A DNA stretch of 64,000 nt. Origin: Haliclystus octoradiatus. Its lineage: Eukaryota; Cnidaria; Staurozoa; Stauromedusae; Haliclystidae. The notes beneath the pieces were generated by a model. It did not search any database, was not told where the DNA came from, and worked only from the letters and a program-made list of their open reading frames with translations. Made by a program: the position numbers and the translations under genes. The number at the start of each line of letters is the position of its first letter. Within the stretch, counting starts at the first letter, position 1. Location of the stretch: the NCBI GenBank assembly GCA_916610825.1, contig OU744447.1:15669751-15733750 (forward strand), given 5' to 3'. Positions 3,601 through 63,799 of this stretch are shown here, one piece after another.

Positions 3601-6600
3601 TTTATTTGGTTGATTTTCACAAAGGTAAGATAATATTATGGCCTGTTTAAAACTCCTTCAAACACAAATCTGAGTTAGACTATTTTGGTTCTATTATAAT
3701 ATCTTGTTATTATCATTAACTCAATTTTCAATAATAATTATGCAAATGAACCATGGACCAGATCATGGGAGGATGATGTAGTTTTCATTCAGCTAACTTC
3801 ATTTGCTTTTGGTTCTAGGCTTTTTCAAGGAAGATGGTTCATTTGGTCCTTTGCGTCCATCAGGTGTTGAACTTGACACGCTGATGCATATAGGAGAAAA
3901 ATTCAGCACAGTCCCTGAGGGACTTACAATTCATAAAGGTTAGTAGCATGAGTGACAACCATCCAAATACCTTACTCGCCCTCTATATATTTAAAAAGGC
4001 TCAACACCTGTTCAGCATCTCAATGATCAACTTTGTATTTGTATTACATTTAGGTCTCAAACGTGTATTAGATGGTCGAAAAGAAATGCTTAAAAACAAT
4101 GAAGTAGATTGGGCTCTTGGTGAGGCACTAGCGTTTGGCTCATTATTAAAAGAAAAGATCCATGTTAGATTGAGTGGACAAGATGTGGAGAGAGGCACAT
4201 TTAGGTAAGTTTCAGAGCAATATCAGATTCCAAAATCAAAATTACTGGATAGAAAGTTGCCAAAATTCAAGTAGCATTCGGCATTGTATGTATTTTCATT
4301 TAAAACAGAACTCCAATTTAATGCTGCTATTGTATGAGAATTATATTTAATATTGTATCAGAATTCCTTGAATGTACTATCTACTCCACTGTAATGCATT
4401 CCTCTAATGAAAAACATCTCAAATTGTACATTAGTTACATACAGCACTGACAGCAGGCCTGGTTTGTTCATCCCAGAGGAGAGGACTTTTTGAGTTTTTC
4501 TATCACAAATAAGGGCTGGATTTAAAACTAAAACTTCAGATTGTAACTTCTACTGTGTTATGACATCACATAATACCGGTATGCCTTATTGTGATATCGA
4601 ATTCAATGTTTTACTTATATTTGCAGTCATCGCCATCATGTTCTTCATGACCAAGATAGAGATGGCATCCGTTCAGTACCATTGAATCAATTATACAGTG
4701 ATCAAGCAGAATATACTGTTTGCAACAGCTCGTTGTCAGAATATGCTGTTTTAGGTAAACCATACACTATTTACATTTTCTCTACTTTTGACTTCTAGCA
4801 TCCCTATGTGTTAAATAGGCCTACCCTAAGATAGAAGAACGGAAATCTGCATGTTGAATGTTGATCCTAATAAGGGAACAAGAGAAGTTGATTATGTTCT
4901 AATTCGCTTCTTATTCAAATTCAGACATCTTGTTTGGAAGCGTAAAGACTTTATATCACTGTCATCCTTCCAGTAACCAGACCCCGTCATTGCAAACAAG
5001 CATCATCCCTTGTTTTGACGAAAATAAAAATATTATAAGCTCCCTCAGAGTTTTTTCTACGGTATTGTTTGTTATTGTCCCAATGGAAAACCGGGGGATG
5101 AATCTGGCATGTGTTTTTATGTTTCCTTGTTGTTCATTTAGCACTTATGATCTGGATATTAAATTTCTAATGTACTATCTTTTGATAGGGTTTGAGCTTG
5201 GTTACAGTATGACTAATCCATATGCATTGATCCTATGGGAAGCACAGTTTGGTGATTTCATGAACACAGCTCAGGTACAATTTGTTACAATATAATACAG
5301 TCAAACCTGTTTTAATGGCCACCTCTATTCATTGGCCACCTGTCTATAGTGGTCATTCTAGCAATGTCAAAAATAGTATTTTCTATTGAATCAACCATTT
5401 AGAATTGTATATATATACCTCATGCGTATAATGATCAATCTATCTACTTCTCTTATCTGATGCATCTAACAGCTGTTTTAACTACAACCACAGACAATAA
5501 CTATGTTACTCATAAACCTTCATATTTGGCTATTTGGTCCTTCAATTCTAGCCATCTGTCTATTTTTATCTCAGTGTATTATTGATCAATTCTTGAGCAG
5601 TGGCCAAGATAAATGGATACGGCAAAGTGGTTTGGTGATGTTGCTACCTCATGGCTACGAAGGAATGGTTAGTTTAATCTAAGTCATCAATTAATTGACT
5701 GTGTTACAGTTTGTAACCCAATTTGTCTTCAATCTTTATGGTTCTGCTCTTGTAACTACTTCTATTAGCCCTGTCTCTGTAAATTTTCTTATTATCTGGG
5801 TGATGTCCCCTTTGGAGGAACATTGGAGGTGGATACATATAGCACACCAGTGGATGAAAATGCCATGTTTACTTTCTACTCATAGCTATGTTCACCTGAT
5901 TACTATTTAACGCACCATTAAAGAGTTTCGAATGACCAGCAGCCTTTGCTTTGTTTTGTTGTCTTGATTACAAGAAACGAGGCTAATCCTCTGGAAAGTG
6001 ACGTCAGCGCTCACGTCAGAGGATTGTCCTCGTGACTGTTGCTACGGAAAGACACGACAGAAAGCTCGAAAAAATAGTCTGGTTTATCAATTTCAATTTT
6101 GAATAAATCTCAATTCTTACTTGTCGAAACGCAAAGTCTATGACCATAGATAGCCAACAAATGTATACGGTTCAAAAATAAATAGCAGAATGGGAGTGAC
6201 GGTCCGATAATATCTGTCTGAGAAGTTTGACGCAAATTAAGACAACTTAGAAAAATGTACTTTCAAATCAACACTTAATAAATTCATATGATTCTAAATT
6301 TTACAATTTACGTGCATAAATACTGCAGGTAAACAATGCAATATAAAACATACATAGGTATGTAACTAACTATTTTTAGACGAAACCTACGTGTTTACAA
6401 ACATAATTTGGAGTCAATGATCAAACAAAGTATCCGTATTAAAAATCGAATTCACCTGGTGTTATAATTAATTTCATTTTGTTTCGGCGATAAATTTCGA
6501 TTTTGAATGCTAACAAATCTCTTCCCGTTCTTTCAATCCCTAATATTCTTGTATCAAGTAAGCACCAACATGAAATTCTGAATCAGTCGAGTTCAGTTGT

Positions 6601-14321: not shown

Positions 14322-14353
<32 letters not shown>

Positions 14354-14483
14354 TTATTCAGAACCTTTAAGTTATACAAACTTTTTTTCAAAGGACTGAT
14401 ACATAGCTAAGTTGACAGGAAAACAAACATTAAGTAAAAAAACAGGCATAAATAACAGGAAAGAGTGGTAAGTGTAAAGTATA

Positions 14484-17400
14484 CTAAGAACGTAAGTGCT
14501 TCTCAAGGAGACGTTTGAAAGTAGGCCTGCTTTGGACTTCCTTCATTGCAGACGGTAGATCGTTCCACTTATGCGCACCAGCGTCTTGAAATGAATGACG
14601 ATGGCTCGACTTGATGTAAATGTCATTGTGGGCGTGAGATCTTGTTCTGGTGGAATACGGCAGTTGGAAAAAGTCGGAAAGCAAAGGAGGAGCTAGTTTG
14701 AATTTAATTTTATGAGTGAACATTAGTTGATGCGATGTTATTCTGTCTCTAACAGAAAGCCAACCTAGTTGACTTTGCATATCAGAGACACGAGTGCGAT
14801 AGTTACAACGGAGCACTGTCCTCATTCCTCTGTTTTGCAATCTCTGGAGGCGATCTAGATGTTCGGTTTTACAGTTCCCCCATACGACAGCGCAGTAGTC
14901 AAAGTGTGGCAAAACAATGGTGTTATAAATAGTTCTAGCTGCTTCTTGCGGTATGAAGCGTCTCACGTATTTCAAAACGCCCAAGCTTCTATTTATTTTC
15001 TTATTAATTGCTATGACATGTTTGTCGAAAGATAGGGTATTGTCTATTAAAATGCCTAGGTATTTTAAAAGATCTACTCTTTCGACAGGTTTGTCATCCA
15101 GCTTTATTATTAAATCGACGTGTTCTTGTTTATTAAGTTTTGGCCTGGAGCCTATTACCATGCAGTTAGTTTTATTTATATTTAATGTTAGTTTATTTGC
15201 ACACAGCCAGGCATGTATTTCAATCAGATCTGACTGTAAAATTTCTTCAACGTCTTTCAAATCTTTACGGGCTACATACAAAAGCGTATCATCTGCATAT
15301 AGATTTATTTTACAGTTATTTACAGAGTTACAAATATCATTTATATAAATAAGAAAGAGTAGCGGCCCAAGGATTGACCCTTGAGGAACTCCGTATTTAA
15401 TTACACCTAAATTTGAATTTACACTATTTATATTAACAATTTGTTTTCTATTCAATAAATAAGATTTAAAAAAATTTAAGCTATTTACATCACTGCCGTA
15501 TAATTTTAATTTATCTAATAATATATACAAGTCTACAGTATCAAATGCCTTTTTAAGATCAATACTAATTACACCTATAAGATTTCTATTTAAAATATTA
15601 TTGAAACAAAACTCAGAAAAATTTAACACACTACCGTCTGTCGAATGGTTTTTACGAAAACCAAATTGGTAATTAGTTAATAAATTATGTTTTGATAAAT
15701 AATAATTTAACTGGGTATGAGCAATTTTTTCTAAAAGTTTGGAGATTATCGGAAGGACTGAAATTGGACGATAATTGGTTCTCTCAGTTATGGCATCCCC
15801 TTTGTGTAAAGGGATAACCTTTGCTGTTTTCAGAGCTTCAGGAAAGACACCATCCCTGAGAGAAAGATTGAATATTCTAGTCAAGCCTGGTGCAATGCTG
15901 TGTGCAGTTAATTTTAAAAGCCTAGTTTCTATGTTATCGATACCTACAGATCGTTTATTTGGTAGTTTATATATTAAATTTTCTGTTTCTAAAATTGAAA
16001 TTGACTGAAATTGAAATTGATTTGCTAAGATATCTACATTTGTTATATTATTTATAAAATTTGTTGTTAAAGTCATTGGATTATAATTTGTTGACTGAAT
16101 AGACGAGGCTAATTTATTTGCAATATCTAAAAAATAATTGTTAAATTCATTTGCTATGGTTATATTATCAGTAATTGGTTTATCATTTATGTTAAGAGTA
16201 TTAATATTTACATTTTTTAATTTATTTGGTAAAATCTCTTTCAGAAATTTCCACATTTGTTTAGGATTTCCTTTGTTTTCTAATATATTTTGATGATAAT
16301 AATTTTTCTTGCATTGCCTAAAATAATTTGTAAATTGATTCCTAGTTTTTTTAAATAAATTGAAATAAATTGCATCATTTGTTCTAATAAATATTTTATG
16401 GTAATTATCGCGCTTATTTTTCAACATTCTGGCATGGTCATCTAAAAAACTTTTTTTCTTTTTTGATTTCACTCTGATTTGTTTAAGCGGTGCAATCTCA
16501 TTTACAATGGTATTGAATACTGCTTGCCATGCATAATATGTATCATCGACGGTGGTGAAAAAGTTTAAAAAATCCCAATTGGTTTGTTGTATGGCAAGAT
16601 TAAGCGATGCTGCATCTAGATCTTTATAATTTCGGGTTAGTGTTAGTTTATGATTACGTACAGGTTTTTTGGCGTTGGTTTTATAAATATAATAATTCAT
16701 TTGGTGATCTGCCAATATATCTAAGGTGACACCGGTTTCAAATAGATCACCGTGTAAATTTGAAATCGCTAAATCTATACAAGTGGATGATGTATTTGTA
16801 ATACGTGTGGGTGATGTTATGTGTTGGTTAAAATTATTTTCAGTAAGAATCGCTGTTAATTTGCGTGTCATTGATGAATTGGAATTAAGCGTGTTAATGT
16901 TAAAATCACCTAAAATTATACTTGACTTATCATTATGATCTAAATAACCTATAAAATTTGAAAATTCGTCTAAATAATCTATGTGTGCGTGTGGATGCCT
17001 ATATATACATGTAATAAATAAATTGTTTCGAGTGTGTGGTATTTGAAGTTCTATTGTGATGCTCATTAAATTAAAATTATTGTATAAAGATGGAACCTTG
17101 AATAAATAGCCTGACTTTATATATATTAAAACACCTTGTTTACCGACAAATTGACCACTGTTATCATACCTGATGGGAGAACTGTAGCCATCCAGAGATA
17201 TGAGGTTGTCTGGTATCTCAGGGGATAGCCAGGTCTCTGTCAAACAGAGGACGTCTGGGCAGCGCTCCGCGATGAAATTAATGATGCTATCAAAATGAGT
17301 TAATACTCCTCCTTGCCCAGAATTGAGATGGCAGATCTTCAAGCCACTGGTGTCCGTGTAGACCTCTCCACCATCCACACATCCAGAAGTACCATCAGGA

Positions 17401-17663
17401 CCAGGGTTAGTTTCAATGTCTCCAGCAAGAAGCAAAATTAGCAGCAAAAAAATTAAATATTTACAGTATTTATATTTTATAACTAAATTAGGTTTAAATA
17501 AAAATAAAGAAGTAGATAATGAAAGAAAATTATTGTTTTGTATATACAGAAAGTTGAAGCCAGTTTTTGATGCATTAACAGTGGCTTGTGTTGATAAATT
17601 GCAGACATATGGACGACATTGACTTTGTAATACGATAAGTGTTATAAGATAACTGACAAACAT
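14484..17663 (-). CDS. LINE polyprotein: 2A-like leader, AP endonuclease, reverse transcriptase
   Basis: 1059 residues, uninterrupted. Residues 1-80 are a hydrophobic leader ending LIFLLLILLLA. Residues 81-89 are GDIETNPGP, a match to the 2A ribosome-skipping consensus DxExNPGP. An AP-type endonuclease follows (about 108-325) with ETWLS near 143, LGDFNINTL near 251 and LADHQMN near 318. The reverse transcriptase (about 600-880) shows NYRPISVLP, SIDLKKAFDTVD, GVPQGSILGPLLF and LYADDTLLYV; the YADD catalytic pair is at 791-792. The C-terminal part carries the usual LGWLSVRDRI region. It nicks target DNA and copies its RNA there. No separate ORF1 is visible upstream. The start is the first ATG after the monomers, so the 2A site would release a peptide of about 88 residues from the enzyme. 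Confidence 0.93.
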   Translation of the reverse strand: MFVSYLITLIVLQSQCRPYVCNLSTQATVNASKTGFNFLYIQNNNFLSLSTSLFLFKPNLVIKYKYCKYLIFLLLILLLAGDIETNPGPDGTSGCVDGGEVYTDTSGLKICHLNSGQGGVLTHFDSIINFIAERCPDVLCLTETWLSPEIPDNLISLDGYSSPIRYDNSGQFVGKQGVLIYIKSGYLFKVPSLYNNFNLMSITIELQIPHTRNNLFITCIYRHPHAHIDYLDEFSNFIGYLDHNDKSSIILGDFNINTLNSNSSMTRKLTAILTENNFNQHITSPTRITNTSSTCIDLAISNLHGDLFETGVTLDILADHQMNYYIYKTNAKKPVRNHKLTLTRNYKDLDAASLNLAIQQTNWDFLNFFTTVDDTYYAWQAVFNTIVNEIAPLKQIRVKSKKKKSFLDDHARMLKNKRDNYHKIFIRTNDAIYFNLFKKTRNQFTNYFRQCKKNYYHQNILENKGNPKQMWKFLKEILPNKLKNVNINTLNINDKPITDNITIANEFNNYFLDIANKLASSIQSTNYNPMTLTTNFINNITNVDILANQFQFQSISILETENLIYKLPNKRSVGIDNIETRLLKLTAHSIAPGLTRIFNLSLRDGVFPEALKTAKVIPLHKGDAITERTNYRPISVLPIISKLLEKIAHTQLNYYLSKHNLLTNYQFGFRKNHSTDGSVLNFSEFCFNNILNRNLIGVISIDLKKAFDTVDLYILLDKLKLYGSDVNSLNFFKSYLLNRKQIVNINSVNSNLGVIKYGVPQGSILGPLLFLIYINDICNSVNNCKINLYADDTLLYVARKDLKDVEEILQSDLIEIHAWLCANKLTLNINKTNCMVIGSRPKLNKQEHVDLIIKLDDKPVERVDLLKYLGILIDNTLSFDKHVIAINKKINRSLGVLKYVRRFIPQEAARTIYNTIVLPHFDYCAVVWGNCKTEHLDRLQRLQNRGMRTVLRCNYRTRVSDMQSQLGWLSVRDRITSHQLMFTHKIKFKLAPPLLSDFFQLPYSTRTRSHAHNDIYIKSSHRHSFQDAGAHKWNDLPSAMKEVQSRPTFKRLLEKHLRS
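17397..17423 (-). other. 2A-like translational recoding motif in LINE ORF
   Basis: The codons read GDIETNPGP directly after a run of leucines and alanine. In 2A peptides the ribosome fails to form the Gly-Pro bond and continues, giving two products; here the break would fall between residues 88 and 89. Such motifs are known at N-termini of some APE-type LINE proteins. Activity here is inferred from the motif alone. Confidence 0.85.
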
Positions 17664-17697
17664 GATAAAAGGGTCAGAAGGTCAAGTATCAACGAAA

Positions 17698-18229
17698 ACC
17701 AGCCAGCGAACAATAAAACCAATGAATAAAATATTAAACCAAACACCACAATGAGACAAATACAATAAAACCAATCAGAGAACAATAAATAATTTGAATG
17801 TACAATGTTTAACGGACAACTTTAAAGAGTAACAAATAAAATTAACTTTGACAAATAAAATGTACAACCAGCCAGCGAACAATAAAACCAATGAATAAAA
17901 TATTAAACCAAACACCACAATGAGACAAATACAATAAAACCAATCAGAGAACAATAAATAATTTGAATGTACAATGTTTAACGGACAACTTTAAAGAGTA
18001 ACAAATAAAACTAACTTTGACAAATAAAATGTACAACCAGCCAGCGAACAATAAAACCAATGAATAAAATATTAAACCAAACACCACAATGAGACAAATA
18101 CAATAAAACCAATCAGAGAACAATAAATAATTTGAATGTACAATGTTTAACGGACAATTTTAAAGAGTAACAAATAAAATTAACTTTGACAAATAAAATG
18201 TACAACCAGCCAGCGAACAATAAAACCAA
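17698..18229 (-). repeat. 169-bp tandem monomers, 3.15 copies, 5' region of LINE
   Basis: Units begin with ACCAGCCAGCGAACAATAAA at 17698, 17867, 18036 and 18205, so the period is exactly 169 bp. The three full units differ at only a handful of positions, and the fourth is cut after about 25 bp. They sit immediately before the LINE start codon, where other LINEs carry repeated promoter monomers; promoter function is inferred. Just beyond, AAACATGTAGACAAA occurs twice (about 18229-18266). Confidence 0.92.

Positions 18230-26848: not shown

Positions 26849-54275
<27,427 letters not shown>

Positions 54276-55785: not shown

Positions 55786-63799
<8,014 letters not shown>

Follow-up and report, generated by a model that had tools for sequence, protein, structure and literature searches.

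The stretch of Haliclystus octoradiatus DNA analysed here, called the window throughout, comprises 64,000 nucleotides of contig OU744447.1 (positions 15,669,751 to 15,733,750), and it carries a long interspersed nuclear element (LINE) whose enzymes are preceded by a leader peptide and a predicted 2A-like (StopGo) ribosome-skipping site. The LINE is read on the minus strand, from 17663 down to 14484, as one ATG-started open reading frame (ORF) of 1059 codons; plus strand frame 1 over 14484-17663 is interrupted by stops throughout. Three ATG ORFs within the window reach at least 150 amino acids (aa), and this one is the longest; in first-order Markov simulations (30 sequences of 64 kb) the maximum open stretch was 174 codons. 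Pfam placed Exo_endo_phos at residues 127-302 (2e-9) and RVT_1 at residues 623-871 (1.1e-31), and among PDB chains L1 ORF2p was one of the best matches (1.3e-13, reverse transcriptase part), R2 proteins matching more weakly over the same part. The order along the protein is an 88-residue leader, the 2A site, an apurinic/apyrimidinic endonuclease (APE)-type endonuclease and a reverse transcriptase (RT). With endonuclease and RT in one ORF, the element is an APE-type retrotransposon lacking long terminal repeats (non-LTR). Scans of viral contigs and of prokaryote genomes and contigs gave zero confirmed relatives, the only hit in a phage collection was a weak one to an RT (1 record, 23.9% identity), and the window had no matches to Rfam at gathering scores or in a tRNA scan.

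We searched the host genome (262 Mb, 33 contigs; G000 in the coordinates below) with the protein and scored 43 of the 7,933 candidates, in 47 rows, which are the best among many candidates and are biased towards intact copies. Eight scored rows (L001-L008) span all 1059 residues, 100% as printed and with no stops, and the DNA of the window copy is 99.7-100% identical to that of the other seven over ~3.8-3.9 kb. All eight full-length copies end in AATAAAT(GAT)n, with 7-11 repeats in the seven other than the window copy and a small variant in L008, and the 3' flanking bases beyond this tail are different in every one of them, as are the 5' flanks in the five copies where the start of the 5' monomer array is visible. 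Such near-identical DNA within different flanks makes the eight copies look like separate recent insertions, and in being scattered, with one shared 3' end and differing 5' ends, they behave as LINE copies do. In 15 copies, whose 5' ends were taken from BLAST bounds, target-site duplications, which are typical of LINEs but do not define them, did not stand out, the mean longest shared flank word being 6.1 against 5.6 in mismatched pairs and a word of 8 being reached in 1 of the 15; in some CR1/L2-type LINEs target-site duplications are absent or short. To judge from these comparisons, the window LINE is a member of a young, recently mobile multi-copy family. We named the subfamily of the window copy A and its relatives B (about 79-80% identical to A), C (L022; 66% identical, open frame, 1066 aa) and D (L064; 53-54% identical, open frame, 1047 aa), plus a distant family F (L065; 32% identical, open frame, 1082 aa), for which five full-length, stop-free rows were obtained and whose BLASTP alignment with A begins at the G of GDIE. 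An A-like variant with a different N-terminal leader part was also noticed in three copies lying ~43 kb apart (L031-L033; G000:C1:1930600, 1973520 and 2017850), a spacing that perhaps reflects host tandem duplication.

The motif GDIETNPGP lies at residues 81-89, and a six-frame reading of the window shows no other NPGP. Twenty-five of the 47 rows begin at or before codon 82; leaving out L010, whose 5' truncation lies inside that codon, D(I/V)ExNPGP is intact in all 24 rows spanning the core, even in those with no more than 53-54% identity (coordinates matched to the pattern search). Two rows truncated at or in the site, beginning after codon 82 (L020, L030), are uncounted, whereas L023 was included among the rows with an intact core despite a stop-broken frame upstream. 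The core was retained even in decayed copies, such as L027 with its 31 internal stops, and in family F the motif is present in 7 of the 7 scored rows that reach back to residue 1. Across the genome the exact pattern D(V/I/M)ExNPGP gave 67 matches and its reversed control 0; a looser pattern (GAY-NNN-GAR...) gave 74 and 1, respectively, and the 7 extra looser-pattern matches were set aside as looking, by eye, like the 3' parts of tRNAs. The original prediction of an intact LINE ORF at 14484..17663 holds for its 1059 codons, for GDIETNPGP ahead of an endonuclease (Exo_endo_phos from residue 127) and for the 88 residues before the Gly-Pro break, but it had left the minus strand unstated. It would have been given up had most genomic copies lacked NPGP, and the scored copies were found otherwise; frame, domains and core conservation together support an open-framed APE-type LINE with a 2A-like site.

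In the window copy the residues leading into the core read LLLILLLAG-DIETNPG/P. We tallied the hexapeptides before the core in 32 distinct core-bearing stretches of the loci examined, a subset of the 67 genomic matches, and 26 of them showed L-rich hexapeptides with AG or SG as the last two residues (ILLLAG 10, LLLLAG 7, TLLLAG 4, LILLSG 4, TLLFAG 1), the others being FMPLIC (3) and TVLLCG, HLMSCG and LLAKSG (1 each). In the available text of PMC12846837, motifs 2/6 are L-rich upstream, end in (A/S/C)G and carry D at position 12, and motif 6 was among four tested, all four of which supported StopGo. The ILLLAG of the window copy, compared by eye, resembles this class, with D at position 12 but Thr at position 15, and StopGo activity of the predicted 2A site is likely. 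Some further core-bearing loci are recorded here for themselves. Three DIELNPGP (L042-L044; G000:C2 near 3.70, 3.75 and 3.80 Mb) lie ~50 kb apart in short frames, with C before the core and not G, and in L042 and L043 no LINE domain was recognised by eye. GDVETNPGP occurs at L063 (G000:C8:10962501) in a short frame with a stop 27 codons after the NPGP start and no endonuclease seen in frame, and GDIEKNPGP at L049 (G000:C2:27542775) is directly followed by disrupted endonuclease-like frames that, by eye, belong to another type of LINE.

Table 1. Features of the LINE in the window (positions in the window; all on the minus strand)
Feature	Position	Strand	Basis or remark
Whole LINE copy, 5' monomer array to 3' GAT tail	14322..18229	-	3908 bp, as bounded here
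5' untranslated region (UTR) array, 169-bp monomer, 3.2 copies, sense strand ATG-free	17697..18229	-	Tandem Repeats Finder
Single ORF: leader, 2A, APE-type endonuclease, reverse transcriptase	14484..17663	-	1059 aa
Leader, 88 residues (MF...NPG), expected to be released by skipping	17400..17663	-	Sequence
Hydrophobic N-terminal segment FVSYLITLIVL (residues 2-12), signal-like candidate	17628..17660	-	Sequence
N-x-S sequon N30-A-S32	17568..17576	-	Invariant in A/C/D alignment, also in B
Leucine-rich stretch YLIFLLLILLLA, directly before 2A (residues 69-80)	17424..17459	-	Sequence
2A/StopGo core DIETNPG/P (residues 82-89)	17397..17420	-	Matches core D(V/I)ExNPGP
APE-type endonuclease (Exo_endo_phos, residues 127-302)	16758..17285	-	Pfam
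Reverse transcriptase (RVT_1, residues 623-871; YADD)	15051..15797	-	Pfam, PDB comparison
3' UTR, 162 nt, AATAAA then (GAT)n tail	14322..14483	-	Same 3' end in other seven full-length copies

The monomer array of the 5' UTR (Table 1) starts at varying positions among the LINE copies and is longer, past 1.4 kb, in L002, L003 and L005. The 566 nt before the start codon of the window copy contain 0 ATG, against 9.7 expected from base composition, and, within the bounds set here for this copy, no ATG precedes that of the leader. Nine A copies were checked, and eight were without an upstream ATG within the array or locus. On the sense strand the same 566 nt hold no stop-to-stop frame of at least 85 codons; with neither an ATG nor such a frame upstream, the window copy therefore has no ORF1.

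When the leaders of A, C and D are aligned, all three have M1, N30, S32, G35, N37 and K63, followed by the leucine-rich and 2A residues. A start of the form MF(V/L)xxL(I/V)T is common to A, B and C (MFVPHLIT and MFLPYLVT in B and C), and among the B copies L034 has an in-frame ATG 12 codons further upstream and L052 starts MSV. An N-x-S is found at the equivalent place in all four subfamilies, as NAS in A, B and D and as NES in C. The omega values of the leader were 0.43 (A/B), 0.42 (A/C) and 0.49 (B/C), and those of the endonuclease 0.09, 0.14 and 0.14, respectively. As far as such alignments tell, the 2A site is strongly constrained and the leader weakly so. AlphaFold, run on a three-row alignment, gave a mean predicted local distance difference test (pLDDT) of 30.2 and no usable model.

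The leader had been described as about 80 hydrophobic residues, which proved too strong, since we found two hydrophobic stretches (about residues 2-12 and 69-80) with a polar middle between them. Both stretches of the window leader fall within shuffles of its own composition (p=0.52 and 0.13), and over all leaders 2 of 10 such hydropathy tests pass 0.05, namely the C N-terminus (p 0.044) and F before 2A (p 0.028). According to the part of PMC2978324 at hand, the ribosome exit tunnel holds 30-40 residues. When Gly88 occupies the P site, everything from residue ~49-59 onward, including the leucine stretch 69-80, should lie inside the tunnel, and residues 1 to ~48-58 alone should have emerged at skipping. 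The leucine stretch, being still in the tunnel at that moment, would therefore be invisible to the signal recognition particle unless skipping fails and translation continues, and by the same geometry the extreme N-terminus is the one place left for any co-translational signal. The leucine stretch may then exit after release like that of a tail-anchored protein, or act as an internal signal anchor if skipping fails. Its earlier reading as a signal sequence has weak support, for it begins at residue 69 and should lie in the tunnel at skipping, and the extreme N-terminus, which the original prediction had not mentioned, is the better candidate. The sea urchin precedent adduced for it exists in so far as PMC4981915, in its available part, describes a 2A-like signal, but that signal is a 26-residue N-terminal stretch of NLR proteins and not of LINEs; in the window LINE, signal and 2A do not share one N-terminal stretch of ~26 residues, the core being at residues 82-89. 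The available part of PMC2978324 also states that the 2A reaction is inhibited in certain polyproteins with N-terminal signals, and a leader signal acting in that way would yield a mixture of products.

Taking these results together, we are largely confident, on the grounds of sequence, that the element is a single-ORF APE-type LINE, full-length and recently mobile, with a ribosome-skipped leader. Transcription would probably begin within the 169-bp monomer array, and ribosomes, scanning a 5' UTR devoid of ATGs, would initiate at the first one they meet and produce the 88-residue leader. At NPG/P, going by the motif class, most ribosomes would skip the Gly-Pro bond and release the leader, and the endonuclease-reverse transcriptase would then be made as a separate protein beginning with Pro, while failed skipping would leave a leader-enzyme fusion. 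The tunnel geometry suggests that the released leader would resemble a tail-anchored peptide, its leucine stretch being in the tunnel at release. The enzyme would copy the RNA by target-primed reverse transcription, the mechanism established for LINEs.

Several observations weigh against this account. The decayed copy L019 reads NPSP (its leader lies in a separate piece, outside the 24-row count), and one of the nine A copies, L007, has an upstream ATG. At eight loci of other subfamilies or variants, some of them possibly 5'-incomplete, we counted 1-10 ATGs per 300 nt before the start used, and the ATG depletion of the window copy is itself moderately strong at most because the array repeats one unit and amounts to about one 169-bp sample. 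The weak constraint on the leader belongs here as well: the upper bootstrap bounds of its omega are 0.87-1.15, A/B reaching 1.15, and a random-placement test on the leader minus its last part gave P 0.016 for A/B and 0.013 for A/C but 0.22 for B/C, 0.13 for C/D and 0.33 for A/D. Position 15 of the 2A motif is Thr in A (Ser in B and F, Leu in C and D), and not the Ser after Glu with which motifs 2, 4 and 6 are associated in the available text of PMC12846837. Lastly, L067, a related LINE frame found elsewhere in this genome (G000:C4:23691500-23695600; 966 aa from the first ATG, 30% identity to A and 33% to F, its GDFN motif reading RDFN), shows neither 2A nor hydrophobic leader, although it is one copy whose 5' completeness is not established; in the partial sequence examined of L068 and L069, of the same family, no 2A was seen. 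From L067, the skipping device may be dispensable for some LINE relatives. That frame might also be taken to mean that NPGP is a chance or inactive relic feature, which we consider very improbable given the 67 matches against 0 in the control, the core in every spanning scored row and in families 32% identical, and a context like the active class described in the available text of PMC12846837.

Two other readings turn on what the leader does. The unskipped product might go to the secretory pathway by way of a leader signal while the skipped product stays cytosolic, with the ratio regulated; sea urchin NLR proteins offer a precedent in the portion of PMC4981915 consulted, and it agrees with the hydrophobic beginning of the A, B and C leaders and with the N-x-S at an equivalent place in A-D. 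We nevertheless judge such dual targeting unlikely: neither hydrophobic stretch of the window leader exceeds its shuffles, the start of D is weak (Kyte-Doolittle value, KD, 0.41), the A-like copies L031-L033 are without the MF start, and secretion would seem of no obvious use to an enzyme that acts on chromosomes. The leader might instead have an accessory function of its own, as a small membrane protein in place of ORF1. The window copy is indeed without ORF1, and F has by eye a similar layout of hydrophobic start, N-x-S, basic patch, leucine stretch and 2A. A, B and C resemble one another in a block of 17 residues, NASKTGFNFLYIQNNNF, with a random-placement P of 0.029 for A/B and 0.019 for A/C but 0.26 for B/C; the random-placement tests on block and leader lean towards constraint because the alignments were made at the protein level and the block was chosen for its likeness. 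Against a functional peptide stand the weak constraint on the leader as a whole, the lack of any Pfam match or of a PDB match better than E 0.41, and the A and F leaders, which show no clear sequence similarity, and we regard this reading too as doubtful. A narrower form of it, which we put forward as a long shot, is that the leader is a small glycosylated or tail-anchored membrane peptide of an ORF1-less LINE, made one-to-one with the enzyme and perhaps tethering translation of the RNA to the endoplasmic reticulum or nuclear envelope, with 2A cutting the peptide off the enzyme and the layout kept in two families 32% identical. Our preferred reading remains that of the ribosome-skipped leader, whatever its role. 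The L067 family offers a possible natural contrast: one genome has both a young LINE family, its skipping site conserved and eight of its full-length copies near-identical, and a related LINE frame seemingly without the site. This contrast makes it testable why some LINEs place a skipped leader before the enzyme.

Elsewhere in the window, to the right of the LINE on the minus strand, lie an exon with a UPA_2 domain (30136-30984) and single ankyrin-repeat exons (37081-37374, 40386-40646, 43932-44294), which probably belong to one host gene. Long ATT/TAA microsatellites occupy 49471-49654 (61 units) and 56556-56964 (136 units), the latter overlapping, and probably making, the 175-aa ORF at 56488-57015. 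A short plus-strand frame at 4903-5295 gave a sub-threshold match to the transketolase pyrimidine-binding domain (25.4 bits, cut-off 27). In the wider genome, the COX1 match on contig C33 contains 8 TGA codons, and if AGA is taken as Arg, residues regarded as conserved (LLTDRN) are preserved; this presumably fits mitochondrial code 4 and so points to a sponge or cnidarian.

2A sites in LINEs are already established. Odon et al., in 2013, reportedly described APE-type non-LTR retrotransposons with 2A-like sequences in the clades Rex1, Crack, L2, L2A, CR1 and Ingi. The present family is like those LINEs in that one ORF encodes both an APE-type endonuclease and an RT, with DxExNPGP upstream of the endonuclease (reportedly so in theirs), and what is described for it in addition is the leader anatomy and the monomer 5' UTR. 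L1Tc of Trypanosoma cruzi is likewise said, after Heras et al. in 2006, to carry a 2A in frame with the LINE enzymes; this holds for both elements, likened by description and not by sequence, while host and lineage differ. Mouse L1 promoters are tandem monomer arrays serving as 5' UTR, and the present array resembles them in being a tandem ~0.2-kb unit of variable copy number in the same position; its unit is 169 bp and T-rich, the likeness is one of layout and not of sequence, and its promoter role is putative. The sea urchin SpNLR2A, as far as the available part of PMC4981915 goes, has in common with the present LINE a hydrophobic stretch running into 2A near the N-terminus, but there the 2A-like signal is 26 aa at the N-terminus of NLR proteins, whereas here the 2A ends an 88-aa LINE leader whose signal role is putative.

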